Positions 5,546 to 62,191 of a DNA stretch of 64,000 bases are shown here, one piece after another. The notes beneath the pieces were generated by a model that worked only from the letters and a program-made list of their open reading frames with translations, had not been told where the DNA came from and ran no database searches. Within the stretch, counting starts at the first letter, position 1; each line of letters starts with the position of its first letter. Source of the stretch: Rhodocyclaceae bacterium (GTDB taxonomy: Bacteria; Pseudomonadota; Gammaproteobacteria; Burkholderiales; Rhodocyclaceae); NCBI GenBank assembly GCA_030681195.1, contig JAUXXJ010000012.1, positions 1-64,000 of the forward strand, in the 5' to 3' direction. The position numbers and the translations under genes were made by a program.

Positions 5546-5569
5546 GCCGTCCCGCCAGCGCCGACTTTT
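5546..5569 (+). repeat. Dispersed 24-mer, copy 1 (intergenic)
   Basis: Exact match to the consensus (left half GCCGTCYCGCC, right half AGCGCCGACTTTT, contiguous). It lies between the rplM promoter and the OsmC gene. A 9-bp inverted repeat (GACAAAAGT at 5532-5540, ACTTTTGTC at 5564-5572) encloses it, so the end of the motif can pair with upstream sequence. Confidence 0.95.
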
Positions 5570-5625
5570 GTCAAGCTTCAAACTCTCTACAATGACAGGC
5601 AACAATCGACTCTCGGGAGAATGAA

Positions 5626-6042
5626 ATGGAATGTACGGTCAGATGGCACGAAGGCATGAGCTTTATTGCACAAACCGGCAGCGGTCACCTCGTGCCGATG
5701 GATGGTGCGCCGGAAGCGGGCGGCCATAACTGGGCGGCGCGCCCAATGGAGTTGTTGCTGGCCGGTGCAGGCGGTTGCACCTCGTTCGATGTCATTTCGA
5801 TCCTGAAAAAAAGCCGTCAGGACATCCGGGCTTGCGAAGTCAAATTAGATGCCGAACGCGCCGCAGAGGACCCCAAGGTCTTTACGCAGATTCACCTGCA
5901 CTTTATCGTTACGGGACGGGAGCTGAAGCCAGAAGTAGTGGAGCGCGCCGTCAAGCTTTCCGCCGAGAAATATTGCTCCGCCTCGATAATGCTCGGCAAA
6001 ACCGCCGAGATGAAGCATTCTTTCGAGATCGTCGAGGTCTGA
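5626..6042 (+). CDS. OsmC family protein
   Basis: OsmC/Ohr-fold proteins are thiol peroxidases that reduce organic hydroperoxides. The 138-residue product has the two family cysteines: Cys51 in GAGGCTSFD and Cys117 in KYCSAS. The whole sequence resembles the YhfA-like subgroup more than Ohr. A GGGAGA ribosome site precedes the ATG. It is convergent with coq7, with only 4 bases between the stops. The physiological substrate cannot be read from the sequence. Confidence 0.9.
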   Translation: MECTVRWHEGMSFIAQTGSGHLVPMDGAPEAGGHNWAARPMELLLAGAGGCTSFDVISILKKSRQDIRACEVKLDAERAAEDPKVFTQIHLHFIVTGRELKPEVVERAVKLSAEKYCSASIMLGKTAEMKHSFEIVEV

Positions 6043-6046
6043 CCCG

Positions 6047-6673
6047 TCAGATTCGGTGGGCGGTTGTCGTCATCAGCTTGGCGGCAAGCTTCATCGCGAG
6101 CTTGGCGAGGCCCGGCAGTTCTTGCGCCCCTAACCCGGCAGCCATGTTTGCATGGCGAATTTCGTCGGTTTTCATCTGCTCAATAATCGCGTGCGAGCGT
6201 CCATCGGCGGCCGGTAACTGATCCAGATGACTGAGCAGATGTGCCTCGACCTGCCGCTCCGTTTCGACGACAAACCCGAGGCTGATGGCATCCCCCATAC
6301 GCCCGGCAACCGCACCGATGGTCCATGCCCCGGCATACCAAAGGGGGTTCAACAAGCTCTTGTGGCCACCTAGCTCGGCAATCCGCCGCTCTGTCCAGTT
6401 GAGATGCTCGGTCTCTTCCCAGGCTGCCTGCTGCATCGCGACCTTGGTTCGATCATCGCGAGCCGTCGCCGCCTGTCCGGCATATAAGGCCTGCGCACAA
6501 ACCTCACCCACATGGTTGATCCGCATCAGCGCGGCCACATGGCGACGCTCACTTTCTGTCAGGTCGGCTTCAGGCATCTGTTCGCCCGGCATCGGGCGCG
6601 TCGTCGGTGCTGCGGCAAACACCGTCCGCAAGGCCTGATCAACTTGTGAAATTAGGGGATCGAGTAAGCTCAT
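6047..6673 (-). CDS. coq7: Demethoxyubiquinone hydroxylase Coq7
   Basis: This is a membrane-associated di-iron monooxygenase that adds the last ring hydroxyl in ubiquinone synthesis. The 208-residue product has the ferritin-like carboxylate and histidine ligands in the ETEHL and DEIRH motifs. Betaproteobacteria use Coq7 where many gammaproteobacteria use UbiF. Its start overlaps the CNP1-like gene stop by 4 bases, so the pair is translationally coupled. Confidence 0.96.
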   Translation of the reverse strand: MSLLDPLISQVDQALRTVFAAAPTTRPMPGEQMPEADLTESERRHVAALMRINHVGEVCAQALYAGQAATARDDRTKVAMQQAAWEETEHLNWTERRIAELGGHKSLLNPLWYAGAWTIGAVAGRMGDAISLGFVVETERQVEAHLLSHLDQLPAADGRSHAIIEQMKTDEIRHANMAAGLGAQELPGLAKLAMKLAAKLMTTTAHRI

Positions 6674-7188
6674 AGCGCCTCAGGATGCTTGCCACGACGC
6701 AGGGCATCGCGACCCTCATCGGGGGTGTAAATCGCCACACCATTTGGGCAGAACAAATCCCGCGACAAGGCCGCATGGTGACGATTCACTGGTTTGTTTT
6801 CAATCGGCCGCCACTCGCTCAGCCGAGCCTTTGTCCAACGCCCCTCGCGGTGCCCCGACGCATAGAGACGGAATTCACGCGCATCACAGCGTATGCCCTC
6901 GAAGCTGATGTTGGTCGCACCGCCACTGGTCTGGACCACCAAGACATAACGCACCACGCCATCCTTGCCCACCTGCAGCGTCGAGGCATCGATCATGAAG
7001 CGATGCGCGGTCATCTCGCTGACATAGAACGGCAACAGGTTCTCGGTCTTGGGAAATTCCGGCGGGACGGCCTCATCTTCCGTCCACTTGGGCGCATCCG
7101 GGTCGCTGAGGTCGCGAAAACGCACATCAGCCATCGCCACCGTCGTCAGCAGCAGCAGGGGCCACAAAGTCCATCCATGCCATTTCAT
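6670..7188 (-). CDS. CNP1-like secreted protein
   Basis: A 172-residue exported protein of the CNP1-like family (first noted in Neisseria), with no known biochemical role. A cleavable signal peptide is evident (residues 1-20, ending AMA-D). The mature part has two cysteines (in IRCDA and LFCPN) that could form a disulfide, and no membrane helix. It overlaps rppH upstream and coq7 downstream by 4 bases each, so the three form one tightly coupled minus-strand unit. Confidence 0.8.
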
Positions 7189-7875: not shown

Positions 7876-9606
7876 ATGCGCGCCAGTCAATTCTTCATCG
7901 CCACCCTGAAAGAAGCCCCCGCCGACGCCGAGGTCGCCTCCCACAAGCTGATGACCCGCGCCGGCATGATTCGCAAGCTGGCAGGCGGCATCTACAGCTA
8001 CATGCCGATGGGGCTGCGGGTCATCCGCAAGATCGAGGCGATCGTCCGCGAGGAAATGAACCGCGCCGGCGCCATCGAATTGCTGATGCCGCTGGTGCAG
8101 CCCGCCGAACTCTGGCAGGAAACCGGTCGCTGGGACAAGATGGGGCCGGAGTTGTTGCGCGTGAAGGACCGCCACGACCGCGACTTCATCATCCAGCCCA
8201 CCTCCGAGGAGGTGGTGACCGACATCGCTCGTGGCGAGATCCACAGCTATCGCCAGTTGCCGAAAAACTTCTATCACATCCAGACCAAGTTTCGGGATGA
8301 GCGGCGCCCGCGTTTTGGCGTGATGCGCGGCCGCGAATTCACCATGAAAGATGCCTACTCCTTCGACCGCGACGAGGCCAGCGCGGAGAAAAGCTATCAG
8401 GCCATGTATGCCGCCTATGTGAAGATTTTCGAGCGGCTGGGTCTAACATTCCGCGCCGTACGTGCTGACACGGGGGCCATCGGCGGCTCGCTATCCCATG
8501 AGTTTCAGGTGATTGCCGACACGGGTGAGGATCTGCTGGTCTACTGCCCCGACTCCGACTACGCCGCCAATATCGAACTGGCCGAAGCATTGCCGCTGCT
8601 TGCCGTCCGGCCAGCGCCGACTTTTGCAATGGAAAAAGTCGCGACGCCCGATACCATCCGCTGCGAGGACGTCGCCAAGCTGCTCGGCCTGCCGATTGAG
8701 CGCACCGTGAAATCCATCGTGATCGCCACGGACACCCCGCTGGGCGCCGAAGTCTGGCTGCTGCTGATTCGCGGCGATCACGAACTGAACGAAGTCAAAG
8801 CGGGCAAACTGCCGGGCCTCGAAGGCGGATTCCGCTTTGCCACCGAACAGGAAATCATCGAACACTTCGGCTGCCCGCCCGGGTATCTCGGTCCGCTCAA
8901 CACGAAGAAGCCGGTACGCATCGTGGCTGACCGCACGGTCGCCAACATGAGTGATTTCGTCTCCGGTGCCAATGAAATCGGCTTCCATACCCGTAGCATC
9001 AACTGGGGGCGCGACCTGCCGGAACCGGAATTCATCGCCGACATCCGCAACGTCGTGGCTGGCGACCCGTCACCCGACGGCAAGGGCCAACTGGCCATCC
9101 AGCGCGGCATCGAGGTCGGTCATATCTTCTTCCTCGGGACGAAATACTCGTCGGCAATGAACTGCACCTACCTCGACGAAACCGGCAAGCCGCAGACGAT
9201 GGTGATGGGCTGTTACGGCATTGGCGTCACACGCCTGGTCGGCGCGGCCATCGAGCAGAATCATGATGAAAAGGGCATCATCTGGCCCGACAGCATTGCG
9301 CCCTTCACGGTCGCCATCTGCCCGGTGGGCTGGGGCAAGTCTGAAGCCGTGCAGCAAGCCGCCATCGAGTTGTACGAAAAGCTCATCGTCTCCGGCATCG
9401 ACGTCATTCTCGACGACCGCGACGAGCGGCCCGGCGTCATGTTTGCCGACTGGGAACTGATCGGCGTGCCGCATCGCATCACCATTGGCGACCGCGGCCT
9501 CAAGGAAGGCCTAGTCGAATATCAGCACCGCCGCGACAAAGAGGCCACCAAGGTACCGCTGGCCGACATCGCGGCACTGGCGCGTCAGAAGGCATGCGGC
9601 GTTTAG
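7876..9606 (+). CDS. proS: Prolyl-tRNA synthetase with editing domain
   Basis: This class II synthetase charges tRNA-Pro. The 576-residue product has the bacterial architecture: a catalytic core with [16 protein letters not shown], an inserted YbaK-like editing domain (about 240-400), and the anticodon-binding C-terminus. The ATG at 7876 gives the family start MRASQFF. Residues 243-250 (AVRPAPTF) are encoded by dispersed 24-mer copy 2, in the linker where the editing domain begins. The 3' end overlaps the next gene by 13 bases. Confidence 0.98.
8602..8625 (+). repeat. Dispersed 24-mer, copy 2 (inside proS)
   Basis: One mismatch to consensus (G at position 8). Read in the proS frame as AVRPAPTF, motif and gene on the same strand. 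Confidence 0.9.
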
Positions 9607-10238
9607 GGCTGCTTTTCTGCCTGCTCTGGACAGCGAATGTCTGGGCCGGCGCGCAACAATACGAGCCGCTGGCCGCCAGCGTGCAGGCGGCCCTGCATGC
9701 AGCCGTAGCGGACAAGTCCGCACCCGAGCCACGCTTCGACAGCATCGATGAAAAGCTCGACTGGTTGACGGAAATGTCACGGCGCCTCGAAAAGCGCATG
9801 CCGGATCGCCGGGGCCGTCTGGAATTTCTCAAGACAGTGCGCTACGAAGCCCAACGCGCCGGACTTGATCCGCATCTGGTGCTGGGGCTGATTCAGGTGG
9901 AAAGCGGCTTTCGCAAGCACGCCGTATCAAGCGCCGGCGCGCGTGGCTACATGCAGGTGATGCCCTTCTGGGTCAAGCTGATTGGCAGTCCCGACAGCAA
10001 TCTGTTTCATCTGCGCACCAACCTGCGTTTCGGCTGCACCATCCTGCGCCACTACCTCGATATCGAGAAAGGTGATCTCTATCGCGCCCTCGGCCGCTAC
10101 AACGGTAGCCTCGGTCGCCCGGAGTATCCCAACATGGTCCGTGCTGCCTGGGAAAAGCACTGGGCCTGGGGCCCGCGCGTCATTCAGGCGCGGCAGTCAA
10201 AAGTCGGCGCTGGCGGGACGGCAGCCAATAACGATTAG
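9594..10238 (+). CDS. Lytic transglycosylase (SLT domain)
   Basis: This is a predicted periplasmic enzyme that cleaves peptidoglycan glycan strands. The 214-residue product has a signal peptide (1-18, ending VWA) and an SLT domain (about 85-190). The likely catalytic residue is Glu103 in QVESGF, followed by [12 protein letters not shown]. It overlaps the proS end by 13 bases in another frame. The last residues ([13 protein letters not shown]) lie beyond the enzyme fold and come largely from dispersed 24-mer copy 3. It converges on ffh, with a 4-base overlap of stops. Confidence 0.93.
10199..10222 (-). repeat. Dispersed 24-mer, copy 3 (3' end of transglycosylase gene)
   Basis: Exact consensus match in reverse orientation. 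It is read as KVGAGGTA in the C-terminal tail of the transglycosylase, ending 13 bases before the stop codon. Confidence 0.95.
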
Positions 10239-12601: not shown

Positions 12602-13816
12602 ATGGCTTCGCCAAACAAGGCTGATGGGCAAACAATGTTCTCTTGGGAGGGCAAGGATAAGCACGGCAAGATCGTGCGCGGCGAGTTGCGTGCGGCTTCC
12701 GAAACCATTGTCCGTACCACCGTGCGCCGCCAAGGCATCATGGTCAGCAAGGTCAAGAAACTTTCATCTCGCGGCGGTGGCAAGGTCACGGATAAAGACA
12801 TCGCGCTATTCACGCGCCAACTGGCCACGATGATGAAGGCCGGTGTCCCCCTTCTCTCAGCCTTCGATATCGTGGCCAAAGGGGCAGCCAACGGGGCGGT
12901 CAGCAAGCTGCTGATCGACGTGAAGACCGACGTCGAGACCGGCTCATCGCTAAACCAGGCCTTCCGCAAGTACCCACTCTACTTCGACCAGTTGTACTGC
13001 AACCTGGTCGAAGCAGGTGAGCAAGCGGGTATTCTTGACTCATTACTTGACCGACTTGCGACCTATAAGGAAAAGACTCAAGCAATCATCTCCAAAATTA
13101 AAAAAGCGTTGTTTTACCCAATATCCGTATTGGTCGTCGCCTTCCTCGTCGTCGCCCTGATCATGATTTTCGTCGTACCCACGTTTAAGTCGGTATTTGC
13201 CGGTTTCGGCGCCGAGCTTCCAGGGCCAACACTCGTCGTCGTCGCGATTTCGGATTACTTCGTAGCCAACTGGTACATCATCTTCCCTGCCATCGGCGGC
13301 GCAATATATGCCTTTCTATACACATGGAAACGATCTGTGCCAGTGCAAATATTCATGGACAAGGTCTCGTTGCGTCTACCGATTTTCGGGGCAGTCATTC
13401 GTAAGGCAACGATGGCGCGCTGGACCCGCACCCTTTCCACAATGTTTGCGGCGGGGGTTCCTCTCGTTGAGGCACTGGATTCTGTCGGTGGTGCCTCTGG
13501 TAACTACGTCTATCGCGAAGCCACTAAGCAGATCAAGGCAGAAGTCAGTGTCGGCTCAAGTCTTACCGTAGCAATGCAAAATGCCAATATCTTCCCGAAC
13601 ATGGTGATTCAGATGATCGCCATCGGTGAAGAGTCTGGGCAGCTTGATCAGATGAGCGGGAAGGTGGCCGACTTTTATGAAGCCGAGGTCGACGATGCCG
13701 TCGACGCGCTGTCGAGTCTGATGGAGCCGATGATCATGGTGGTATTGGGCGGTCTCATCGGTGGCATCATCGTTGCCATGTACTTGCCGATCTTCAAACT
13801 CGGCGCTGTCGTCTAA
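12602..13816 (+). CDS. pilC: Type IV pilus inner-membrane platform protein PilC
   Basis: PilC is the inner-membrane core on which the assembly and retraction ATPases act. The 404-residue product has the two repeated T2SSF (GspF) domains (about 70-195 and 275-395), each with its transmembrane helices, ending in a hydrophobic segment. An AAGGAG site lies 6 bases before the ATG. pilD follows after 6 bases. The usual upstream partner pilB is absent here; ypjD occupies that position. The middle of the gene has a visibly lower GC content. Confidence 0.96.
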   Translation: MASPNKADGQTMFSWEGKDKHGKIVRGELRAASETIVRTTVRRQGIMVSKVKKLSSRGGGKVTDKDIALFTRQLATMMKAGVPLLSAFDIVAKGAANGAVSKLLIDVKTDVETGSSLNQAFRKYPLYFDQLYCNLVEAGEQAGILDSLLDRLATYKEKTQAIISKIKKALFYPISVLVVAFLVVALIMIFVVPTFKSVFAGFGAELPGPTLVVVAISDYFVANWYIIFPAIGGAIYAFLYTWKRSVPVQIFMDKVSLRLPIFGAVIRKATMARWTRTLSTMFAAGVPLVEALDSVGGASGNYVYREATKQIKAEVSVGSSLTVAMQNANIFPNMVIQMIAIGEESGQLDQMSGKVADFYEAEVDDAVDALSSLMEPMIMVVLGGLIGGIIVAMYLPIFKLGAVV

Positions 13817-13822: not shown

Positions 13823-14668
13823 ATGCCACCTATTGAACCCACGACGCTCGTCGTAGGAAGCGTCGTTTTCGGTCTGCTGATCGGCAGTTTCCTCAACGTC
13901 GTCATCCATCGTCTGCCTATCATGATGGAGCGCGACTGGCAGGTTCAGTGCGCAGAGCTTGCGGGCAGCCCCCCGGCCAACACCGAGCCGTTCTCTCTGG
14001 TGGCCCCACGCTCTCGTTGCCCGCATTGCGGCCACCTGATCGGTGCGCTGGAAAATATCCCGATCCTGAGCTACTTGCTGCAAAAGGGACGTTGCAAGGG
14101 GTGCGGCAAGGGCATCAGTCCCCGCTACCCATTGGTCGAGGCACTGACCGGACTTGTCTTCGGCTATGCCGCCTGGCGCTTTGGCTTCAGTCTGGCAGGG
14201 GTCGGTGCCATGCTCTTCCTGGCCATCATGATCGCCCTGACGTTCATCGATGCCGACACCCAACTGCTGCCCGACGACCTGACCCTGCCGTTGCTCTGGG
14301 CGGGACTGCTGATCAACCTTTTCCACACCTTCACGACCCTGTCCAACGCAGTCATCGGTGCAGCCGTCGGCTATCTGGCGCTTTGGTCTATCTATTGGCT
14401 GTTCAAGCTCGCCACCGGCAAGGAAGGCATGGGCTATGGCGACTTCAAGTTGCTCGCCGCCATCGGGGCTTGGCTAGGCTGGCCCTTGTTACCGCTGGTG
14501 ATCCTGCTGTCTTCTCTGGTCGGTGCCATCATTGGCATCGCGCTGATCGTGCTGGCCAAGCGTGGCCGCAATGTGCCGATGCCCTTTGGCCCTTACCTGG
14601 CCATCGCTGGCGTCATTGCCTTGTTTTGGGGCGCCGAGATCAATCGAACCTATCTAGGACTCATGTAG
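13823..14668 (+). CDS. pilD: Prepilin peptidase / N-methyltransferase PilD
   Basis: This membrane aspartyl protease cleaves and methylates type IV prepilins and pseudopilins. The 281-residue product has the N-terminal zinc-type CPHC...CKGC cysteines (about residues 67-97) and several transmembrane helices. The two catalytic aspartates sit in the motifs IDADTQLLPD and GYGDFKLL. It follows pilC directly and is presumably co-transcribed. One peptidase can serve both the Pil and MSHA systems present in this window. Confidence 0.97.
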   Translation: MPPIEPTTLVVGSVVFGLLIGSFLNVVIHRLPIMMERDWQVQCAELAGSPPANTEPFSLVAPRSRCPHCGHLIGALENIPILSYLLQKGRCKGCGKGISPRYPLVEALTGLVFGYAAWRFGFSLAGVGAMLFLAIMIALTFIDADTQLLPDDLTLPLLWAGLLINLFHTFTTLSNAVIGAAVGYLALWSIYWLFKLATGKEGMGYGDFKLLAAIGAWLGWPLLPLVILLSSLVGAIIGIALIVLAKRGRNVPMPFGPYLAIAGVIALFWGAEINRTYLGLM

Positions 14669-15660: not shown

Positions 15661-15684
15661 GCCGTCCCGCCAGCGCCGACTTTT
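15661..15684 (+). repeat. Dispersed 24-mer, copy 4 (before aspS)
   Basis: Exact consensus match, between the DUF502 stop and the aspS start. The aspS frame stays open through it (ARRPASADF), but the family start lies downstream. Confidence 0.95.
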
Positions 15685-21330: not shown

Positions 21331-24517
<3,187 letters not shown>

Positions 24518-24555: not shown

Positions 24556-24661
24556 TGGAGGGCAACCTCCCCCGCTTTTCCTCCCTGAGCGGGTGCCCCG
24601 GTGCTAATCGGGGCATTTGACCCCTGGCTTTCTCCCCTTTAGCCAGGGGTCATTTCTTTTT
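24556..24661 (+). ncRNA. Candidate small RNA with four hairpins and intrinsic terminator
   Basis: About 105 bases between hemB and ysxC fold into four consecutive stems. They are GGAGG/CCTCC with a GCAA tetraloop (24557-24570), CCCGC/GCGGG with a loop containing TCCTCCC (24571-24593), TGCCCCG/CGGGGCA (24594-24615), and an 11-bp stem GACCCCTGGCT/AGCCAGGGGTC (24619-24651). The last has a loop TTCTCCCCTTT and is followed by ATTTCTTTTT. The last stem plus U tract is a good plus-strand terminator, although no plus-strand coding gene lies upstream. Two C-rich loops could pair with Shine-Dalgarno sequences. I do not recognise a named RNA family. Confidence 0.6.
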
Positions 24662-25259
24662 CAAGCCATGCACCGATCACCTTCTCGGCCTCCTCGATAC
24701 CGGTTTTCTTCAGGCTGGAAAACAACTGCAGTGTGAATGGTACGCCGGGAAAGTCGGCGCTGGCGAGACGGCGTGCCGCCGCCAGGGTTTTGGCCTGCTC
24801 CTGACGGGTCAGTTTGTCGGCCTTGGTCAATAGGCAATGAATCGGCCTGCCGGTCTCGCCGAACCAGCCAATCATCTTCCGATCAAGCTCGGTAAAGGGA
24901 CGGCGCGCATCCATGATCAGCACCAGCCCGACCAGCGCCTCGCGCCGCGTCAGGTAATGCTCCAGCAGACCCTGCCACTGACGGCGCACGGTTTCAGGCA
25001 CTTGGGCATAGCCATAACCGGGCAGGTCGACCATCGCGGCACCATTCTTCAGGCGGAACACGTTAATCAACTGGGTGCGCCCCGGCGTCTTGGAAACATA
25101 GGCCAGCCGCGTATGGTCAGCCAAGGTGTTGATGGCGGAGGACTTGCCGGCATTGGAGCGTCCGGCAAAGGCAATCTCCGCCCCGCCGGCCTGAGGCAGC
25201 ATGTAGGGATCGGCAACAGAAATCTCGAATTCAGCGTGGCGGAACAGGTTGGATGTCAT
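24639..25259 (-). CDS. ysxC: Ribosome biogenesis GTP-binding protein YsxC/EngB
   Basis: This essential GTPase acts in large ribosomal subunit assembly. The 206-residue product has G1 GRSNAGKSS, G3 DLPGYGY, G4 LLTKADKL and G5 FSSLKK. The ATG at 25259 gives MTSNLFRHAEFE, matching the family; a longer open frame upstream is non-coding. Residues LASADF near position 165 come from dispersed 24-mer copy 6. Its last codons overlap the terminator stem of the candidate small RNA. It is divergent from cytochrome c4. Confidence 0.96.
   Translation of the reverse strand: MTSNLFRHAEFEISVADPYMLPQAGGAEIAFAGRSNAGKSSAINTLADHTRLAYVSKTPGRTQLINVFRLKNGAAMVDLPGYGYAQVPETVRRQWQGLLEHYLTRREALVGLVLIMDARRPFTELDRKMIGWFGETGRPIHCLLTKADKLTRQEQAKTLAAARRLASADFPGVPFTLQLFSSLKKTGIEEAEKVIGAWLEKEMTPG
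24749..24772 (-). repeat. Dispersed 24-mer, copy 6 (inside ysxC)
   Basis: One mismatch (last T is C). Same strand as the gene, read as RLASADF. Confidence 0.88.
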
Positions 25260-27995: not shown

Positions 27996-28767
27996 CCGGA
28001 TCGGGCGCGGTCAGCTTCCAGGCATGGCCATAGACAATCTCGAAGCGCGCAGGCAACACCCCATCCACGCGCGGCCAGGCCGCCAGGACCTGACGCCAGC
28101 GTTGCCAGGAAAGCTGGCCCAGCAAGACATCACGCACCCCGAGATGGCGCTGGTCGGCGAGAAAAGCACGCGGGCTGCGATAGGTCAGCGTCAGCATTTC
28201 CATTTCCATCACCGGGTCTGAAAAACCGGCCGCCAGCAGCATGTCGCCAATGTCGTGCATGTCCTGGAAAGCATGAATCGGCGCGCCGGCCGTGCGCAGT
28301 TCCTTCAGGGTATCGGGGCCAAGCAACGCAAACTGTAGCAGCCCGCCTGACGCCAGCGTGCGATGCATCTCACTGAAGGCCGTCTGCAGGCCATCGGGCC
28401 CGAGCCAGTGCAGCATCAGGTTGGACCACACCAGATCGAGGCTGCCGCTCGCCACCGGCAAGGCCCGGACATCGGCATTGACCAGCCGTACCTGCCGACC
28501 ACGTAGCCGCGTCAGCCAACCGCTGCGCGCCCGCACGGCCGTCAGCATCGGCAGGGCATAATCCACTGCCAGCGGCAATGCGGCTGGATAACGTCGCTGC
28601 AAGTCGGCGATGCCATCGCCAGTGGCACAGCCCACGTCGGCTACCCGTTGCGGCGCCAACCGTACGCAACCGAGTCGCTCGCCCAAGCGTCGCCCCACTT
28701 CGCGCGCCAGCACGGCCGCGCTGTCGTAGGATGCAGCCGCTTTGGCAAACTTCTTTTGCAATGTCAT
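27922..28767 (-). CDS. bioC: Malonyl-ACP O-methyltransferase BioC
   Basis: BioC methylates malonyl-ACP to start pimelate synthesis for biotin. The 281-residue product is a Rossmann methyltransferase with SAM motif VADVGCATGDG (about residues 43-53), DLVWSNLMLHW and LLQFALLGPDTLKEL, all characteristic of BioC. The ATG at 28767 fits the family start. It is divergent from comF (16-base gap) and its last 24 codons overlap the sensor kinase gene. Biotin is needed by the acc and pcc enzymes also encoded here. Confidence 0.93.
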   Translation of the reverse strand: MTLQKKFAKAAASYDSAAVLAREVGRRLGERLGCVRLAPQRVADVGCATGDGIADLQRRYPAALPLAVDYALPMLTAVRARSGWLTRLRGRQVRLVNADVRALPVASGSLDLVWSNLMLHWLGPDGLQTAFSEMHRTLASGGLLQFALLGPDTLKELRTAGAPIHAFQDMHDIGDMLLAAGFSDPVMEMEMLTLTYRSPRAFLADQRHLGVRDVLLGQLSWQRWRQVLAAWPRVDGVLPARFEIVYGHAWKLTAPDPATRPETQAVMRFHPPHSSRSADGQ

Positions 28768-28783
28768 GGGCCGATCATCCGTA

Positions 28784-29494
28784 ATGCACGCGTGCTTGTC
28801 AATTTTCGATTCGCTATGGCCCAACACCTGCCTGCTGTGCGGCATGGCGAGTGGTACTGCCGCAGTCTGTCCTGGCTGCCTGTCCGACCTGCCGCGCCTT
28901 GCCACACCGCGCTGCCCGATCTGCGCCACGCCACTGTGTGTCCCGGCACCCGCCTGCGGCGCCTGCCTGAGCCATCCGCCCACCTACGATGCCACGCACG
29001 CCGCCTGGCGCTACGGCTACCCGCTCGACGCCCTGATCCACCTGCTGAAATTCGGTCACGGACAAGCCCTGCGCCGTTTCGCCAGCGCCGACTTTTTGGC
29101 CAGCCAGATGCGGGTCGATGCCCCCGGCGACGCAACCCTCCTCATACCGGTGCCGCTCTCGCACCAACGTTTGCGCGAACGCGGCTTCAACCAGGCGCTT
29201 GAACTGGCCCGGCCGCTGGCCAATATCCTGAAACTACCGCTCGACGCCACCAGCCTGACGCGCGAACGCGATACGCCGCCGCAAAGTCTGCTGCCCTGGC
29301 GCGCGCGCAAGAACAATGTGCGCCACGCCTTTTCCTGTAGCACCGATTTTTCGGGACAATCCGTCATCGTCGTCGATGACGTGATGACCACGGGCGCCAC
29401 GCTCGATGCCATCGCCCGTATCCTCAAGGATCATGGCGCAACCCGTGTCACCAACTGGGTCGCCGCGCGCGCGGTGAAGGCTGACGCTACTTGA
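28784..29494 (+). CDS. comF: ComF family phosphoribosyltransferase-like competence protein
   Basis: ComF proteins are needed for transformation in several naturally competent bacteria; the exact step is unclear. The 236-residue product (from ATG 28784) has N-terminal zinc-finger cysteines (CLLCG, CPGC, CPIC, CGAC) and a PRTase domain with the PRPP loop VIVVDDVMTTGAT. An ATG at 28742 would add 14 residues but overlap bioC. RRFASADF (residues 97-104) is written by dispersed 24-mer copy 7. It converges on mshN with an 8-base overlap. Confidence 0.92.
   Translation: MHACLSIFDSLWPNTCLLCGMASGTAAVCPGCLSDLPRLATPRCPICATPLCVPAPACGACLSHPPTYDATHAAWRYGYPLDALIHLLKFGHGQALRRFASADFLASQMRVDAPGDATLLIPVPLSHQRLRERGFNQALELARPLANILKLPLDATSLTRERDTPPQSLLPWRARKNNVRHAFSCSTDFSGQSVIVVDDVMTTGATLDAIARILKDHGATRVTNWVAARAVKADAT
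29073..29096 (+). repeat. Dispersed 24-mer, copy 7 (inside comF)
   Basis: One mismatch (T at position 6). Same strand as comF, read as RFASADF. Confidence 0.9.
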
Positions 29495-34278: not shown

Positions 34279-34970
34279 CCCGCCCCCCCAGCAGCACTTG
34301 CCGCAAAAGTCGGCGCTGACGGCGCGGCACTGCGGTTATCCGCTGGCGTCGCCGCCTTGCCCTCGCGTGTCGGGGTCAGCATGAACTCATGCCACGGTGG
34401 CGGTGCGACATCGCCCTTCGCCGCGGGGCGTTCGAGCTTGAGCGCTGCAAAGGTCTGTCCTTCGAAGGCCGCCTCCTTGTTCAGGCGCCGGATGTATTCT
34501 GGAATCAAGGCGGGATCGGTGGCATTGCCACGAATCTCCATGCCACCACCGGCGGCCTGGATCGAAAAACCGGTCAGCCACAGGCCGCTCACCGTCTGGC
34601 GGGCGAAGCCGCGCAGGTATTCCGCATAAGAATGCGCATCGGGGCCGACACTACTGCGCAGGGTCGCCAGCACTTCACCGCGTATCGACAGCAATTGTTG
34701 TTGGGCCGCCAGCGCCTGCTCAATGCGTGGATCGGGTTTGCGACTAGCCACCCGCCGACCCGTGACCAGGATCTGATCGCGCACCGCCTTGACCTGTGTT
34801 TCGCCAGACGCAACCTGGGCGCCCAGGGCCGGCAGGCTGCTACGCTCCGCCATGCCCAAGGCACCCACCGCCGTGGCGAGGAGCACCCCGCCGATCACCA
34901 CGTTCTCGAGCGCCAGCCAGTCGCGCTTTCTTTCCAGGGCGGGATCGTAGAGGTTGATCTGCAGGGCCAT
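34275..34970 (-). CDS. PilN-like MSHA biogenesis protein (MshI2)
   Basis: This 231-residue PilN-family protein begins MALQINLYDP, the short cytoplasmic segment that docks into the PilM/MshI actin-like protein. One transmembrane helix (about 22-44) and a periplasmic coiled-coil and ferredoxin-like part follow. The last 18 residues form an Ala/Ser/Gly-rich tail, and AAPSAPTF within it is encoded by dispersed 24-mer copy 8. It lies between mshI and mshJ and overlaps mshJ by 4 bases. Confidence 0.88.
   Translation of the reverse strand: MALQINLYDPALERKRDWLALENVVIGGVLLATAVGALGMAERSSLPALGAQVASGETQVKAVRDQILVTGRRVASRKPDPRIEQALAAQQQLLSIRGEVLATLRSSVGPDAHSYAEYLRGFARQTVSGLWLTGFSIQAAGGGMEIRGNATDPALIPEYIRRLNKEAAFEGQTFAALKLERPAAKGDVAPPPWHEFMLTPTREGKAATPADNRSAAPSAPTFAASAAGGAG
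34305..34328 (-). repeat. Dispersed 24-mer, copy 8 (3' end of the PilN-like gene)
   Basis: Three mismatches in the left half, right 13 bases perfect. Same strand as the gene, read as AAPSAPTF in the low-complexity tail. Confidence 0.75.
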
Positions 34971-36000: not shown

Positions 36001-36024
36001 AAAAGTCGGCGCTGGCGGGACGGC
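36001..36024 (-). repeat. Dispersed 24-mer, copy 9 (intergenic, paired)
   Basis: Exact consensus match between pccA and mshI. A partial copy in the opposite orientation follows at 36031-36044. Confidence 0.95.
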
Positions 36025-40627: not shown

Positions 40628-40651
40628 GCCGTCCCGTCAGCGCCGACTTTT
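40628..40651 (+). repeat. Dispersed 24-mer, copy 10 (fills the mcm-meaB gap)
   Basis: One mismatch (T at position 10). It touches the mcm stop codon and stops 1 base short of the meaB GTG, so it makes up practically the entire gap and supplies the meaB ribosome-binding region. Confidence 0.92.
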
Positions 40652-42922: not shown

Positions 42923-43584
42923 GACACCCCACCGAAAGCCTTGGCTCCCCCGCCCTCTATGAACAGGTCGCGGAACGCCTGCGCGCCCGCATCTACGCCC
43001 ACGAACTGCCGCCCGGTGCCTGGATCGACGAACAGACGCTGGCGGACGACTTCGGCATCTCGCGTACGCCCATGCGCGAGGCACTCAAGGTGCTGGCCTC
43101 CGAAGGGCTGGTCATCCTCAAGCCACGGCGCGGCTGCTATGTCGCCGAAATGTCGGAACGCGACATCGACGAAATCTTTCCCATCCTCGCCCTGCTCGAA
43201 GGTCGCGTCGCCGAGGAAGCAACAGGCCGCCTCACCAGCGCCGACTTTTCACGTCTCGAAACAATCCACGCCGAACTGGAACGCCACGGCGCCACCAACG
43301 ACGCCAACAAGTTCTTCGAAGCCAATCAGACTTTCCACAACACCCTGCAACAACTCGCCGGCAATCGCTGGCTCTCGCAGCTGATCGACGATACACGCAA
43401 GTTCCTCAAACTGACGCGCCGCGACTCGCTGCGCCTCGACGGGCGCATCAGCCAGTCGCTGGCCGAACACCGCGCGATCATGGCCGCGCTCAAGGCCCGC
43501 GATGCCGGTGCCGCCGCACGGCACATGCACGATCACATCCTCTCCGGCCGCGACGCGCTGGCAAAACTCCACGCCCAGCCTTAA
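42913..43584 (+). CDS. GntR family regulator with FCD domain
   Basis: A 223-residue repressor or activator of the FadR/FCD class. The N-terminal winged helix (about 20-85) contains EQTLADDFGISRTPMREALKVLASEGLV, and the C-terminal all-helical FCD domain (about 95-215) has metal-ligand-type residues such as the His in NQTFHNTL. It probably senses an acyl-CoA or organic acid of the divergent methylmalonyl-CoA operon. The predicted transcription start lies only a few bases before the ATG, so the mRNA may be nearly leaderless. Dispersed copy 11 writes RLTSADF. Confidence 0.9.
   Translation: MNARHPTESLGSPALYEQVAERLRARIYAHELPPGAWIDEQTLADDFGISRTPMREALKVLASEGLVILKPRRGCYVAEMSERDIDEIFPILALLEGRVAEEATGRLTSADFSRLETIHAELERHGATNDANKFFEANQTFHNTLQQLAGNRWLSQLIDDTRKFLKLTRRDSLRLDGRISQSLAEHRAIMAALKARDAGAAARHMHDHILSGRDALAKLHAQP
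43226..43249 (+). repeat. Dispersed 24-mer, copy 11 (inside gntR)
   Basis: Two mismatches (C at position 5, A at position 9). Same strand as the gene, read as GRLTSADF. Confidence 0.85.
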
Positions 43585-47556: not shown

Positions 47557-48338
47557 TTTGTTTTATTCCCTCTGACGAATAGAAGAACGCCGATGACGAT
47601 CATCGGCAATGAAAGCCACTGCCCCATGCTGACGACGGAGGACACACCGAAGATGCCGTGATCCGGCTCGCGGAAATATTCGCCAATCCAGCGCACCACG
47701 CCATAGCCGATCAGGAACAGCGCCGAGATCTGCATGCGCGGCCGTTGTTTCGACGAGAACCACCACAGCAGCGCGAACAACAGCAAGCCCTCCCCCAACG
47801 CCTGATACAACTGCGATGGGTGGCGCGGCAGACTATCCACGTAAGGAAATACCATCGCCCACGAAATGTCGGCGCTGGCAGGACGGCCCCACAGCTCGCC
47901 GTTGATGAAGTTGCCCACTCGGCCCAGGCCCAGTCCAATGGGTACCAGCGGCGCGATGAAGTCGGTGAGTTGCCAGAACGTCAGGCCATGCTTCTTCGCA
48001 TACAGCCCCATCGCCACCAGCACACCGAGGAAGCCGCCATGAAAACTCATGCCACCCTTCCACACCGCGAGGATTTCCAGCGGATGCTGCAGGTAATAGC
48101 CTGGCTCGTAGAACAACACCTGCCCGAGCCGGCCACCGAGTACCACGCCAAGTACGCCGAAGAACAGCAAGTCGTCGACGTGCTGCGGCGTCAGGCCATG
48201 CCAGGGCTGCGTTGCGGCGCGCCGCTTGCCGAGCCAGATGAAAGCCAGAAAAGCCAGCAGGTACATCAGGCCGTACCAGCGGATGGCCAGCGGGCCGAGT
48301 GAAATCGCGATGGGGTCGAATTGCGGATGGATGAGCAT
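47553..48338 (-). CDS. lgt: Prolipoprotein diacylglyceryl transferase
   Basis: Lgt adds diacylglycerol to the lipobox cysteine of prolipoproteins. The 261-residue, seven-helix inner-membrane enzyme has the signature [15 protein letters not shown] (about 138-152) and the essential-type HGG motif in SFHGGFLG. Residues RPASADIS just after the signature are written by dispersed 24-mer copy 12. The ATG at 48338 fits the family start. It is divergent from the EEP gene. Confidence 0.97.
47864..47887 (-). repeat. Dispersed 24-mer, copy 12 (inside lgt)
   Basis: Two mismatches (T at position 8, A at position 21). Same strand as lgt, read as RPASADI next to the Lgt signature. Confidence 0.82.
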
Positions 48339-52810: not shown

Positions 52811-53712
52811 GGATTCTCCTCGATAGTGATCGCCGCAACGTGCGGCACCTTGTTGAGTTGCCAGTGTTCGTGTGCCCACGCCCAAAAGTCGGCGCTGGCG
52901 AGACGGCAAGGTGGATTTTGCCCAAGAAATCTCGCAGCGGCTGTCAATGCCCTGCCCGGATCGTGCGCATCCACCGGCGCGGCCAACGTTTGCTTTGACA
53001 GCTTCGCCCCGGTGGCATCGACTGCCACCGGCAGATGGGCATAGGCAGGCGTCGGATAACCCAGCAAGTGCTGCAGGTAAATCTGCCGTGCCGTCGAATG
53101 AATCAGATCGGCACCACGCACGACATGGTCGATGCCCTGATCAGCATCGTCGACCACCACCGCCAACTGATAGGCAAAGTAGCCATCAGCGCGCAGCAAC
53201 ACACAGTCCCCCACGTCGCGCGGCAAATCCTGATGCTGCCGGCCTTGCACCGCATCGTCGAAGTCGATATCACCCGACACGCGCAAGCGCCAGGCCCGTG
53301 CATTTTTTCCGGCCGGCAGGCCGTTGCGACAGGTGCCCGGATATACCGGCGCGCCGTCCGCACCGACCCGCGCACCGTCCAGTTCGCTGCGCGTACAGCC
53401 GCAGGGATAAACGGCGCCCATCGTCTTCAGTTGCTCAAGCACATCGCGATAGCGCGCGGTGCGCTGGCTTTGCACCATCACGGGCCCATCCCACTCGAAA
53501 CCGAAGGCGTCGAGGGTACGTAGGATGTCGTCGGCATGCTCGGGTTTGCAGCGCGGCTGATCGACATCCTCCATGCGCACCAGCCAGCGGCCGCCACGCG
53601 CTTTCGCTTCAAGGTAGCTGCCCAAAGCGGCCACCAGCGAGCCGAAATGCAAAGGCCCTGTTGGCGATGGGGCAAAGCGGCCGATCACGGACGCAGCGGC
53701 TAAAATGTCCAC
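52807..53712 (-). CDS. gluQ: Glutamyl-Q tRNA(Asp) synthetase
   Basis: GluQ-RS adds glutamate to queuosine in tRNA-Asp. The 301-residue product has the HIGH-like RFAPSPTGPLHFGSL (about 12-26), zinc-site cysteines (CGC...C), and KLSKQ in place of KMSKS. It lacks the anticodon-binding domain, which distinguishes it from GltX. The start is GTG at 53712. Residues RLASADF near 275 come from dispersed 24-mer copy 13. Confidence 0.95.
   Translation of the reverse strand: MDILAAASVIGRFAPSPTGPLHFGSLVAALGSYLEAKARGGRWLVRMEDVDQPRCKPEHADDILRTLDAFGFEWDGPVMVQSQRTARYRDVLEQLKTMGAVYPCGCTRSELDGARVGADGAPVYPGTCRNGLPAGKNARAWRLRVSGDIDFDDAVQGRQHQDLPRDVGDCVLLRADGYFAYQLAVVVDDADQGIDHVVRGADLIHSTARQIYLQHLLGYPTPAYAHLPVAVDATGAKLSKQTLAAPVDAHDPGRALTAAARFLGQNPPCRLASADFWAWAHEHWQLNKVPHVAAITIEENP
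52884..52907 (-). repeat. Dispersed 24-mer, copy 13 (inside gluQ)
   Basis: Exact consensus match (T at the variable position 7). Same strand as gluQ, read as CRLASADF. Confidence 0.93.
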
Positions 53713-55914: not shown

Positions 55915-56799
55915 TTACCTGTCACCTTCGAGGCGTACCCAGCCTTCATGCACCGCACCAACCCGCAAGGGCAGGAATGGCGCATAAGCCGCGATGACCT
56001 GCTCGGCCTGCGTTTCCAGCACGCCCGACAGGGCCAGTTTGCCGCCCGGCGCCAAGCGCGAAGTCAGCAGCGGGGCCAGCAACATCAACGGATTGGTGAG
56101 GATGTTGGCGACGACGACATCAAAGCGCTGGGCCATCGGTGCGCTCGACGGCGCCAGCCTCAATACAACCTGATTGCGCGCCGCATTGTCGGCCGCAGCG
56201 GTCAGTGCCGCCGGGTCGATATCCACGCCTGCTGTCTCGCCAGCGCCGAGTTTTTTCGCGGCAATAGCGAGAATGCCGGAACCGCAACCGTAGTCGAGCA
56301 CCGAGACACCCGGCGTGATGGTCGTTTCCAGCCACTCCAGACACAGGCGCGTGGTGGGATGGCTACCGGTGCCAAAGGCGAGGCCGGGGTCGAGTTCCAG
56401 ATTGATCGCCGTGGGATCGGGCGCGACATGCCAGGAAGGCACAATCCATAGCCGGTCGGAAATGCGGATCGGATCGAACTGGGATTGGGTAAGCCGCACC
56501 CAGTCCTGCTCGGCCACATCCTCAAGACGCAGAGGCGTGTGCGGATCGAGTCCGATTTCCTGTATCGCCTGCTTGATGCGGTCGATCAGGTCGGGCACCG
56601 GTTCAAACAGGGCGATGACCCGGCTGACGTCCCAGATCGGTGTCGTCGGTGAACCAGGTTCGCCGAACTGCGGCGTTTCTAGTTCGGTGCCGGCCTGGGC
56701 ATCCTCGACGGAGACGGAGATTGCTCCCGCCGCCATCAGCGCATCCGAAAGCACTTCGGCGTGCGCGGCATCGGTTTCGAGCGCGACGGAAACCCACAT
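55915..56799 (-). CDS. prmA: Ribosomal protein L11 methyltransferase
   Basis: PrmA trimethylates ribosomal protein L11. The 294-residue product has the N-terminal substrate-recognition domain and the SAM domain with LDYGCGSGILAIAAKKLGA (about 163-181), GVDIDPAAL and VVANILTNPL. Dispersed 24-mer copy 14 encodes KLGAGETA between the SAM loop and the GVDIDP strand, one of the most conserved parts of the protein. It lies 6 bases after accC. Confidence 0.96.
   Translation of the reverse strand: MWVSVALETDAAHAEVLSDALMAAGAISVSVEDAQAGTELETPQFGEPGSPTTPIWDVSRVIALFEPVPDLIDRIKQAIQEIGLDPHTPLRLEDVAEQDWVRLTQSQFDPIRISDRLWIVPSWHVAPDPTAINLELDPGLAFGTGSHPTTRLCLEWLETTITPGVSVLDYGCGSGILAIAAKKLGAGETAGVDIDPAALTAAADNAARNQVVLRLAPSSAPMAQRFDVVVANILTNPLMLLAPLLTSRLAPGGKLALSGVLETQAEQVIAAYAPFLPLRVGAVHEGWVRLEGDR
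56231..56254 (+). repeat. Dispersed 24-mer, copy 14 (inside prmA)
   Basis: Two mismatches (T at position 3, G at position 20). Opposite to the gene, read as KLGAGETA beside the SAM-binding loop. Confidence 0.82.
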
Positions 56800-58175: not shown

Positions 58176-58643
<468 letters not shown>

Positions 58644-58695
58644 ACAATCTCCAATGAATGCCGATGCCTGCGTGTTGCAGGCAAGATGTTTAATT

Positions 58696-59262: not shown

Positions 59263-60399
59263 CTACACAATATCCAGATGTTGTATCCCGCCAGAGAGAT
59301 CCTTGTCGGCGGTTTCCTTGCCATGCAGTTTGATCATCAGGCGCACTTCGTTCATCGAGTCGGCGAAACGCAACGCGTCCTCGTAGCTGATCTTGCCGGC
59401 CTCGTAAAGGTCGAATAGCGCCTGGTCGAAGGTCTGCATACCCAGTTCGCGCGACTTCTTCATGATCTCCTTGATGCCATGCACCTCGCCCTTGCCGATC
59501 AGGTCGGAAATCAGCGGTGAATTCAGCAGGATCTCGATGGCGGCAGCGCGCCCCTTGCCTTCCTTGAGCGGAATCAGGCGCTGCGAGACGACGGCCTTGA
59601 GGTTCAGCGACAAGTCCATCAGCAACTGCGGGCGGCGCTCCTCGGGGAAGAAGTTAATGATGCGGTCCATCGCCTGGTTGGAGTTGTTGGCGTGCAGCGT
59701 ACCCAAGGCCAAGTGGCCGGTTTCCGCAAAAGCGATGGCATGCTCCATGACTTCCCGATCGCGAATCTCGCCGATCAGAATGACATCCGGCGCCTGACGC
59801 AGGGTGTTCTTCAGCGCCGCTTCCCACGACTCGGTATCGACGCCGACTTCGCGCTGGGTGATGACGCAGTTCTTGTGGTCATGCACGTACTCGACCGGGT
59901 CTTCGATAGTGATGATGTGGCCGTAGCTGTTCTCGTTGCGGTAGCCGATCATCGCCGCCATCGAGGTCGACTTGCCGGAGCCGGTGCCACCGACGAAGAG
60001 GACGAGACCGCGCTTGGTCATCACCACATCCTTGAGCACCGGCGGCAGACCGAGGTCCTCGAACTTCGGGATGGTGGTCGTGATGGTGCGCAGGATCAGG
60101 CCGGTACGGCTTTGTTGCACAAAGGCATTGACGCGGAAGCGACCGATGCCGGCGGGGCTGATGGCGAAGTTGCATTCCTTGGTCGCCTCGAATTCGGCCG
60201 CCTGCTTGTCGTTCATTACGGCGCGGGCGAGTTCGATGGTGTGCTGCGCGGTCAGCGGCTGCGCGGTGACCGGTGTCATCTTGCCGTCCACCTTCATCGC
60301 CGGCGGAAAACCGGCGGTGATGAAGAGGTCTGATCCCTTTTTCTGGATCATCATCGACAGCAACTGGTGCATGAACTTCAGTGCTTCATCTCTTTCCAT
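59263..60399 (-). CDS. pilU: Type IV pilus retraction ATPase PilU
   Basis: PilU is the PilT-dependent accessory retraction ATPase. The 378-residue hexameric ATPase has Walker A GGTGSGKST (about 130-138), the Asp box ITIEDPVE, Walker B VILIGEIRD and the His box HLALGTLHANN. Its C-terminus is longer than that of PilT, as expected for PilU. The ATG at 60399 gives MERDEALKF. It is 5 bases after pilT and surely co-transcribed. Confidence 0.96.
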   Translation of the reverse strand: MERDEALKFMHQLLSMMIQKKGSDLFITAGFPPAMKVDGKMTPVTAQPLTAQHTIELARAVMNDKQAAEFEATKECNFAISPAGIGRFRVNAFVQQSRTGLILRTITTTIPKFEDLGLPPVLKDVVMTKRGLVLFVGGTGSGKSTSMAAMIGYRNENSYGHIITIEDPVEYVHDHKNCVITQREVGVDTESWEAALKNTLRQAPDVILIGEIRDREVMEHAIAFAETGHLALGTLHANNSNQAMDRIINFFPEERRPQLLMDLSLNLKAVVSQRLIPLKEGKGRAAAIEILLNSPLISDLIGKGEVHGIKEIMKKSRELGMQTFDQALFDLYEAGKISYEDALRFADSMNEVRLMIKLHGKETADKDLSGGIQHLDIV

Positions 60400-60404
60400 G
60401 GTGC

Positions 60405-61448
60405 TTACCCCGGGAAGGTGTCTTTGTTGGCGGCCTTGCTGCGGGCCTCGGCGGATGACACGATGTTGCGCTTGACCAGATCCTGCAGATTCTGATCCAG
60501 CGTCTGCATGCCGAACTGCTGGCCGGTCTGGATCGCCGAATACATCTGGGCAATCTTGTTTTCGCGGATCAGGTTGCGGATGGCCGGCGTGCCGATCATG
60601 ATTTCGTGCGCGGCGACGCGGCCGCTGCCGTCCTTGGTCTTCAGCAGCGTTTGCGAGATGACGGCCTTCAGCGATTCGGACAGCATCGCACGGATCATCT
60701 CCTTCTCGGCAGCCGGGAAGACGTCGACAATCCGGTCGATGGTCTTGGCGGCCGATGAGGTGTGCAGGGTGCCGAACACCAGGTGGCCGGTCTCGGCGCC
60801 GGAGAGGGCGAGACGGATGGTTTCGAGGTCGCGCATTTCGCCCACGAGAATCACGTCCGGGTCTTCGCGCAGAGCGGAGCGCAAGGCGTTGCTGAAAGAC
60901 TTGGTGTGCGGGCCGACTTCGCGCTGATTGACCAGACACTTCTTTGATTCATGCACGAATTCGATCGGATCTTCGACCGTCAGGATGTGGCCGTATTCGG
61001 TTTCATTCTTGTGGTCGACCATCGCTGCCAGTGTCGTCGACTTGCCTGAACCGGTCGGGCCGGTGACGAGTACGATGCCGCGCGGCTGGTCGGAGATTTC
61101 CTTGAAGATTTTCGGTGCGTTCAATTGCTCCAGCGTCAATACCTTGGAGGGAATCGTCCGCAATACGGCGGCGGCACCCCGGTTTTGCACATAGGCATTG
61201 ACCCGGAAACGTGCCAGGCCCGGCACGGCGAAGGAGAAGTCGCATTCGAGATTCTCTTCGTAGGCCTTGCGCTGGCCGTCGTTCATGATGTCATAGATCA
61301 TGCTATGGACATCCTTGTGCTCCATCGCCGGGAGGTTGACGCGGCGGACGTCACCATGAACGCGGATCATCGGCGGCAGGCCGGAGGATAGGTGCAAGTC
61401 GGATGCCTTGTTCTTGACGACGAAAGCAAGCAGTTCGGTGATGTCCAT
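60405..61448 (-). CDS. pilT: Type IV pilus retraction ATPase PilT
   Basis: PilT powers pilus disassembly for twitching motility and DNA uptake. The 347-residue product starts MDITELLAFVVKNKASDLHLSSG and has Walker A GPTGSGKSTT (about 132-141), ILTVEDPIEF, Walker B VILVGEMRD and GHLVFGTLHTSSA. An AGGAG ribosome site lies 7 bases before ATG 61448. It is divergent from yggS, the standard arrangement in proteobacteria. Confidence 0.98.
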   Translation of the reverse strand: MDITELLAFVVKNKASDLHLSSGLPPMIRVHGDVRRVNLPAMEHKDVHSMIYDIMNDGQRKAYEENLECDFSFAVPGLARFRVNAYVQNRGAAAVLRTIPSKVLTLEQLNAPKIFKEISDQPRGIVLVTGPTGSGKSTTLAAMVDHKNETEYGHILTVEDPIEFVHESKKCLVNQREVGPHTKSFSNALRSALREDPDVILVGEMRDLETIRLALSGAETGHLVFGTLHTSSAAKTIDRIVDVFPAAEKEMIRAMLSESLKAVISQTLLKTKDGSGRVAAHEIMIGTPAIRNLIRENKIAQMYSAIQTGQQFGMQTLDQNLQDLVKRNIVSSAEARSKAANKDTFPG

Positions 61449-61492
61449 ACGGAGCTCCTGAAGGTTTGGCCGGATATACTTGAAGCCGATAT

Positions 61493-62191
61493 ATGACAAC
61501 AATTTCCGCCAACCTGCAAGCCGTAAATCAGCGCATCGTGGCCGCCTGCGCCCAGGCCGGACGCGCTCCCGGCCTGGTAAATCTGCTGGCCGTGTCGAAA
61601 ACCTGGCCAGAATCGGCCGTTCGCGCCGCGGCCGGGGCCGGGCAGGTCGCCTTTGGCGAAAGCTATGTGCAGGAGGCGCTACCCAAGATGGCTGCGCTGG
61701 CTGAGCTGTCATTGCAATGGCATTTCATCGGCCCCCTGCAGAGCAACAAGACCCGCCCCGTCGCTGAACGCTTCGACTGGGTGCACTCCATTGAACGTCT
61801 CAAGATTGCCGAACGCTTGTCGGCACAACGGCCCGAGCATCTGCCGCCGTTGAATGTCTGCGTCGAGGTGAATGTCAGTGGCGAGGCCAGCAAAAGTGGT
61901 TGCACGCCGGCAGAGGTGCCCGCGCTCTGCCGCGCTGTGGCTGCCTTGCCGCGACTCAGGCTGCGCGGCCTGATGGCGATTCCCGAGCCGATGAGCGACG
62001 AAAAGTCGGCGTTGGTGAAACGGCACTTTGCAGCAGTGCGGGCGTTGCAGGAAAAACTGGTGGCCGAAGGCCTGCCCCTTGACACACTCTCGATGGGCAT
62101 GTCGCACGACCTCGAAGCCGCGATAATGGAGGGCGCGACCATCGTGCGGGTGGGCACGGCGATCTTTGGCGAAAGGAATTACAGCACATGA
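61493..62191 (+). CDS. yggS: PLP homeostasis protein YggS (PLPBP/COG0325)
   Basis: YggS binds pyridoxal phosphate and keeps vitamin B6 and amino-acid pools in balance. The 232-residue TIM-barrel product has the PLP lysine in LAVSKTWP (Lys36), HFIGPLQSNK, and the phosphate-binding SMGMSHDLEAAI. Residues EKSALVKRH near 170 are written by dispersed 24-mer copy 16. It overlaps proC by 4 bases. Confidence 0.95.
   Translation: MTTISANLQAVNQRIVAACAQAGRAPGLVNLLAVSKTWPESAVRAAAGAGQVAFGESYVQEALPKMAALAELSLQWHFIGPLQSNKTRPVAERFDWVHSIERLKIAERLSAQRPEHLPPLNVCVEVNVSGEASKSGCTPAEVPALCRAVAALPRLRLRGLMAIPEPMSDEKSALVKRHFAAVRALQEKLVAEGLPLDTLSMGMSHDLEAAIMEGATIVRVGTAIFGERNYST
62001..62024 (-). repeat. Dispersed 24-mer, copy 16 (inside yggS)
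   Basis: Three mismatches (T at 6, A at 9, A at 13). Opposite to the gene, read as KSALVKR, a fourth reading frame of the motif. Confidence 0.75.

Follow-up and report, generated by a model that had tools for sequence, protein, structure and literature searches.

A dispersed 25-bp motif and its copies

The first 64,000 nucleotides of contig JAUXXJ010000012.1 from a Rhodocyclaceae bacterium (GenBank assembly GCA_030681195.1; this whole stretch is called the window below) raise the question of why one short motif should recur throughout a chromosome, inside genes as well as between them. The initial annotation, made from the window's letters alone, had described 16 copies of a 24-base motif and compared it with the DNA uptake sequences (DUS) of Neisseriaceae and the uptake signal sequences (USS) of Pasteurellaceae. 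Having followed the motif through the genome and its relatives, we consider it probable, at roughly two chances in three, that it acts as an uptake sequence that marks DNA as 'self' in one betaproteobacterial group. The genomic properties that could be tested well match those of an uptake sequence, and the sequence itself is neither DUS nor USS; the function, the receptor and the import route are what we infer.

All 16 copies were recovered in the window at up to three mismatches, seven on the plus strand and nine on the minus strand, and the annotated list of 13 invariant positions was reproduced exactly. The five exact copies lie in an intergenic region (5546..5569, +), just past the ffh stop codon in the 3′ end of a convergent SLT-domain gene (10199..10222, −), before an aspS-like gene, with a weak hairpin (15661..15684, +), in a second intergenic region, where it makes up the 3′ arm and the T-run of a strong hairpin resembling a terminator (36001..36024, −), and in the overlap of the tRNA-synt_1c and CoA-binding gene frames (52884..52907, −). 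Six copies differ at one base: these are in the sense direction inside proS, encoding prolyl-tRNA ligase (8602..8625, +), an engB-like gene for a ribosome-binding GTPase (24749..24772, −), a comF-like gene (29073..29096, +) and the Ala-rich part of a biotin-carrier gene (58458..58481, −), antisense in a HAD-hydrolase gene (22394..22417, −), and between two minus-strand genes (40628..40651, +). Two mismatches are found in the sense copies of a GntR/FCD regulator gene (43226..43249, +) and lgt (47864..47887, −) and in the antisense copy of prmA (56231..56254, +), and three in the sense copy of a PilN-family gene of an MSHA-type pilus cluster (34305..34328, −) and the antisense copy of an Ala_racemase_N-family gene (62001..62024, −).

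The window's genome (G000) is a 3.66-Mb draft in 58 contigs, and its 3,664,058 bases contain 741 copies, of which 381 are forward and 360 reverse, compared to none for the reversed pattern. Together with the absence of any match in 100 dinucleotide-preserving shuffles of the window, this excludes chance, as the annotation had argued, and places the genome-wide count well above random expectation. In a sample of this genome that covered 842,700 bases and contained the window, we found 202 copies, in which the sharp unit was 25 bp, with the consensus YGCCGTCYYGCCAGCGCCGACTTTT and about 38 bits of information. Hence, the motif exists as annotated but is longer than the 24 bases assigned to it; its position 0 is T in 51% and C in 36% of the copies, and the flanks on either side of the 25-bp unit carried no information. 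The sample held 68, 61, 46 and 27 copies with zero, one, two and three mismatches, followed by only 10, 7 and 9 sites at four, five and six mismatches before the background climbed, while the reversed pattern gave none at up to three. The bimodal mismatch counts show that the copies are held sharp rather than drifting.

The copies of the sample are also evenly spaced, with a mean distance of 4.2 kb, a coefficient of variation of 0.68 (0.98 ± 0.07 for random placement) and a largest gap of 12.9 kb, compared to a mean of about 23 kb when placed at random. Even spacing was likewise seen in the related genome G419 (coefficient of variation 0.79 compared to 0.97 at random, P 0.0015; largest gap 17.9 kb). 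A local cluster was observed on contig C11 of the window's genome, where five copies lie within 1.7 kb (C11:109041-110748), in the space between small frames and a cluster of pilin genes. As several of them have long flanks in common, they arose by local duplication.

Copies within genes

The annotation had noted that the motif is tolerated inside genes, and this holds for the larger sample: 128 of the 202 copies lie wholly within predicted genes, 57 of them sense and 71 antisense, and the other 74 fall between genes or at their edges, an enrichment given that about 10% of the sequence is non-coding. These shares are approximate, since the genes were predicted with a home-made codon scorer that missed a peptidase frame at 1402-2796. 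The excess survives a codon-preserving control, as 100 synonymous-codon shuffles gave a mean of 6.5 in-gene copies and at most 14. Chance and codon usage were thus both rejected, by the shuffles, the reversed control and the synonymous-codon shuffles. The use of reading frames is uneven, two of the six frames having two copies each; these two rare frames translate to Arg-rich peptides (PSRQRRL and KSRRWRDG), and the others to milder peptides, KVGAGETA and AVPPAPTF among them. In the window's genome, the comEC frame has a copy at its start (C7:153581).

Conservation at fixed places in relatives

We compared the window's genome with G419, the genome of locus L011, which has 87.7% DNA identity to it in aligned blocks (238 kb in blocks of at least 400 bp and at least 78% identity, every place counted once). 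At up to three mismatches, 52 of the 58 copies were kept at the same place; of the six others, four had four mismatches, one lay beside a gap with an exact copy near and one was broken by a 21-base gap. In the other direction, three of 62 copies were specific to G419, one of them ungapped relative to the window's genome and two gapped. The identity within the motif was 0.94 for the 12 intergenic and 0.93 for the 46 coding copies, compared to 0.82 and 0.84 in the respective flanks (p 1e-8), and random 24-column pieces of the same blocks gave 0.873. The mean number of mismatches to the consensus was 1.28 for the intergenic and 1.42 for the coding copies.

Two sites could be followed further. A copy lies close behind ffh in L011, L012, L014, L015, L017, L018, L020, L022 and the Rugosibacter locus L042; in Sulfuritalea-type loci it reads GCCGTATCGCCAGCGCCGACTCTT or near variants, and in L024 it is in reverse. 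The proS copy is forward in the window and in L011, and reverse at the aligned place in L017, L020 and L022, which are Sulfuritalea-type; L015 has a damaged reverse copy there, and L025 a reverse copy in its own dialect. In L012, L014, L024, L030 and L057, the site has neither the motif nor a gap, in an alignment that is loose in this variable part (67-87% identity). As the relatives without the motif show no gap at this site, the motif arose there by base changes. The evidence for this mode of origin is the proS site and one of the G419-specific sites; the two other G419-specific sites are gapped. The simplest reading of the opposite orientations at proS would be independent acquisition, suggesting that the presence of the motif rather than its orientation may matter.

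Distribution and dialects

We defined a carrier as a genome with at least 50 copies and counted the tallies from per-genome tables. There were 55 carriers among 395 genomes of the family, in seven genera (Sulfuritalea, Rugosibacter and uncultured kin). The remaining genomes of the family were low, with 32 copies in G064, 25 in G277, 17 in G097, 15 in G232 and at most nine in the rest. Among 399 genomes of the order, the four rich ones all belong to this family, and the others had no more than eight copies, with up to seven for the reversed control. Within the genus of the window's genome, 17 of 18 congeners had 253-718 copies with balanced strands, and the remaining one, G006, had none in its genome; a search of 142 kb of G006 for another over-represented word gave nothing convincing and nothing related to the motif. 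Of 50 loci of named records, all but L061 led to a genome, and these 49 genomes fell into 16 rich ones (77-747 copies) and 33 with 0-9 (reversed controls 0-5); the record titles of L024 (Propionivibrio) and L026 (Gammaproteobacteria) look mislabelled. On a tree of Ffh, the carrier state needs three changes, compared to 14.3 with shuffled labels. Among the best 80 matches, the nearest named records are metagenome-assembled genomes of Rhodocyclaceae and Sulfuritalea species, and the NCBI taxonomy places Sulfuritalea and Rugosibacter in Sterolibacteriaceae.

Two genomes of carrier genera, G006 without any copy and G277 of genus g2 with its 25, are candidates for a loss of the recogniser. Some poor genomes (G524, G036, G034, G123, G168 and others) contain a handful of copies that match exactly or almost so; in part they cluster along the chromosome, and these stray copies could mark DNA gained from carriers.

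The motif differs between lineages in a consistent way. Position matrices of seven genomes share GCCGT..C..CAGCG.CGACT and found, for sites and reversed controls respectively, 218 and 2 in G000, 230 and 0 in G419, 30 and 0 in G110, 22 and 0 in G187, 26 and 1 in G433, 29 and 1 in G429, and 31 and 3 in G434, the last being weak and partly background. In the dialect of G433, 92% of the sites carry T at position 16, that of G110 is open at positions 6-7 and 22-24, and C is favoured at position 0 in G110, G429 and G187. Such a genome-wide change at one fixed position would point to a single recogniser per lineage.

Comparison with known uptake sequences

A strong sequence preference in DNA uptake is described for two families, Pasteurellaceae and Neisseriaceae (PMC7811141), and terminator surveys covering thousands of genomes (PMC13020248) and 343 genomes (PMC1852404) report uptake motifs in the same two. 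No uptake sequence for the present bacterial group was found in the literature searched, whose scope left out most subscription papers and all preprints, and this agrees with the annotation, which knew of none of this form.

As with the DUS of Neisseriaceae, whose receptor is ComP, there are hundreds to thousands of copies, present in genes and enriched between them, and the motif is limited to one family, has lineage dialects and is missing from some kin (PMC3630211). The first seven bases, GCCGTCT, are common to the DUS 10-mer GCCGTCTGAA and to part of the copies, probably by chance. In contrast to the 10-12 bp of DUS, the motif has 25 bp, with no 5′-CTG-3′ core on the motif strand there, and about 740 copies in 3.7 Mb compare to about 1,900 DUS in meningococci (PMC3630211). 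The similarities to the USS of Pasteurellaceae are a genome-wide occurrence on both strands, an origin by point mutation and the existence of lineage variants (PMC7811141, PMC12616744); USS themselves are scarce in a genomic island and unevenly distributed along the chromosome (PMC7811141). However, the sequence is unrelated to USS, which consist of AAGTGCGGT with AT-rich flanks (PMC13020248), and the mean spacing is 4.2 kb rather than about 1 kb (PMC7811141, PMC12616744).

A further-reaching proposal is that the motif belongs to a third, independently evolved uptake system of the Sulfuritalea/Rugosibacter lineage, with a 25-bp tag, a putative receptor, dialects that would act in mate recognition between genera, and an import that is ComEA-free in most members; we hold this tentatively, at a little short of even odds. 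Such a third origin, in environmental betaproteobacteria, would if true mean that genomes have repeatedly come to be self-tagged for transformation, and it would add a new pair of receptor and DNA, with dialects. Sulfuritalea-like bacteria, mostly uncultured, would then be predicted to be naturally transformable, and the missing ComEA makes the dispensability of the known import route testable. Should the motif turn out not to tag DNA for uptake, there would still be hundreds of conserved 25-bp sites, evenly spaced and with lineage dialects, to explain.

Pilus and competence genes

The annotation had placed type IV pilus genes and comF in the window, and these were found. They encode a PilC/GspF-family inner-membrane protein (12602..13816, +), which scores below the curated single-family cut-offs and is probably part of an uptake machine, a PilD-like prepilin peptidase (13823..14668, +) and, from the comF-like gene (28742..29494, +), a protein with a double zinc ribbon and a phosphoribosyltransferase domain. 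On the minus strand, a frame that scores over the curated cut-off for a PilT/PilU-family retraction ATPase (59263..60939) and a second T2SSE-family ATPase (60405..61712) would form a PilT/PilU pair. The window also encodes an MshL-type secretin with a score just below the cut-off, and elsewhere in the genome a minor-pilin operon at C29:36805-39937 encodes a ComP_DUS-family (PilE-type) pilin (E 7.6e-21) and a GspH/FimT-type pilin. For USS, the predicted receptor is the minor pilin ComN/PpdA (PMC7811141, PMC12616744).

With these components, a surface receptor would recognise the motif on free DNA before import by the type IV pilus. A minor pilin of the ComP/PilE or FimT/GspH type, or another surface protein, may bind the motif in either orientation; retraction by PilT/U would pull the DNA across the outer membrane, and ComEC would import it. 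Recombination with tagged DNA from kin would then spread and maintain the motif.

Several observations weigh against an uptake sequence. The motif is longer, at 25 bp, than the 9-12-bp cores of DUS and USS. No inverted pair was present among the 202 copies, such pairs being frequent in Neisseriaceae (PMC3630211); the minimum distance between copies in the sample was 172 bp, so that hairpins formed by paired copies in the style of Neisseria are absent from it. One 60-kb stretch of contig C29 has its copies in a single direction, and the use of copies in terminators is minor (both are taken up below). The pilus genes are not special to carriers, and neither is ComEC: it scores over the cut-off in 55 of the 61 genomes tested, with 19 of the 20 carriers among them, is also encoded by the motif-free G006 and does not track the motif. 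The ComP_DUS family was found in 18 of the 20 carriers and in 53 of the 61 genomes, mostly non-carriers, with 2,850 homologues at an E value of 1e-8 or below. By sequence, the solved structures nearest to the pilin of the window's genome are those of general type IV pilins. The search thus gave no comP-like pilin restricted to carriers, as one would look for by analogy with DUS, and the candidate role of this pilin as a carrier-specific receptor is not supported; being so widespread, it identifies no receptor.

The evidence from mobile DNA is weak, though it goes in the direction that an uptake sequence would predict. In 12 kb around a terminase match in a phage-like contig of the window's genome, no copy was found at up to five mismatches; the terminase model matched in two of 26 carrier genomes. 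Viral contigs contain the exact motif in 43 stretches; leaving aside one copy per stretch, their 389.5 kb have 27 copies with three mismatches or fewer, about one-third of the host density in stretches that were selected for the motif and may include host flanks. The depletion of the motif from mobile DNA therefore rests on one 12-kb stretch and biased viral contigs.

ComEA is the usual periplasmic DNA receptor, and it accompanies uptake sequences without defining them. In what is the strongest finding against an uptake tag, it was over the curated cut-off in only seven of the 55 carriers, all of genus g88, compared to 128 of 340 non-carriers, a comparison that is descriptive only because the genomes share descent. 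In the smaller sample, none of the 20 carriers had ComEA over the cut-off. With the HHH_3 model, a small ComEA-like frame was found in two of 11 carriers. A weak HHH_3 match in G002 was rejected: we read its frame, of 229 residues and nuclease-like in its interior, as something other than a secreted protein of the size of ComEA. The cysM neighbourhoods of ten genomes contained no ComEA, but ComEA is encoded elsewhere in G187, and this negative therefore says little. In Vibrio cholerae, ComEA is reported to be essential for moving DNA into the periplasm (PMC3879209). Hence, its absence from most carriers means that the periplasmic step is taken by another protein or is different, or that the motif is not for uptake. 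Across the family as a whole, ComEA is over the cut-off in 135 of 395 genomes, though ComEC is nearly universal in the sample.

Other functions of the motif

The main rival of an uptake sequence, which we nevertheless regard as unlikely, is an intracellular site for chromosome maintenance, at which a nucleoid, repair or compaction protein would bind every few kilobases while selection spreads the copies. It would suit the very even spacing and strong conservation of the copies as well as the absence of ComEA from most carriers. For USS, whose even spacing is quoted as significant in PMC1939737, this feature led Karlin et al. to such roles, which the same paper disputes on the basis of spacing and orientation. 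A maintenance site would be hard to reconcile with a congener (G006) that does without any copy and with only 25 in G277, as well as with a long and non-palindromic motif that stands in genes in both orientations and has lineage dialects; nor is a binding protein known.

The motif could also mark self for a DNA-degrading enzyme of defence or recombination, in the manner of Chi, so that own DNA is spared and unmarked foreign DNA destroyed. Chi and the FtsK-orienting polar sequences (KOPS) are short, frequent and tolerated in genes, with about 8 bp and a strand bias; Chi-type sites are read on one strand. The frequency of the motif, its restriction to a clade, its dialects and the 12-kb phage-like stretch without copies are in keeping with such a mark, but with 25 bp and an orientation that is unbiased overall, the motif differs from Chi and KOPS alike, and we think this reading improbable.

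The annotation had argued from the mixed directions in the window against a replication-polarity signal of the KOPS kind, and the probability of this, or of any other oriented site for segregation, is very low. By GC skew, 97 of the 202 copies are on the leading strand, or 86 of 186 where the skew is at least 0.02 (p 0.34), so that there is no overall bias and polarity is rejected except in one place: the first 60 kb of contig C29 (C29:1-60000) have all 12 copies in the same direction, whereas the other four stretches are mixed. On the same contig, exact copies in the reverse direction are present past 78 kb.

The annotation had further described the use of the motif in a hairpin terminator. 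The copy at 36001 does form, with an upstream arm, a hairpin of −31.8 kcal/mol followed by TTTT, and three further copies of the window folded at z of −2.8, −3.6 and −0.7. In a fold test on 199 of the 202 copies (three near contig ends were excluded), eight of 27 post-gene intergenic copies in the sense direction folded at z < −2, compared to eight of the 172 others (p 0.0003). The annotated terminator use is thus supported in part, by terminator-like folds in a minority of copies and without paired copies of the Neisseria type, and we read it as occasional co-option, a minor use. That the motif is mainly part of a terminator is scarcely credible when most copies are in genes and in both orientations, and 19 of the 27 post-gene sense copies fold unremarkably. 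A small mobile or insertion-type repeat spread by copying is just as hard to credit and is disfavoured, since the hundreds of near-identical copies and the local duplication on C11 are outweighed by flanks without signal in the 202 copies, a proS site that is ungapped in relatives lacking the motif, G419-specific copies of which one is ungapped (two are gapped), kept places and dialects at fixed bases.

Two minor features of the window were also observed. The stretch at 24568-24659 (+), beside hemB, matches anti-hemB (Rfam RF02837, 67.8 bits), a family that was described from Burkholderia, and a protein encoded at 18821-19882 (+) has a weak match, far under the cut-off, to a CBASS phospholipase model.

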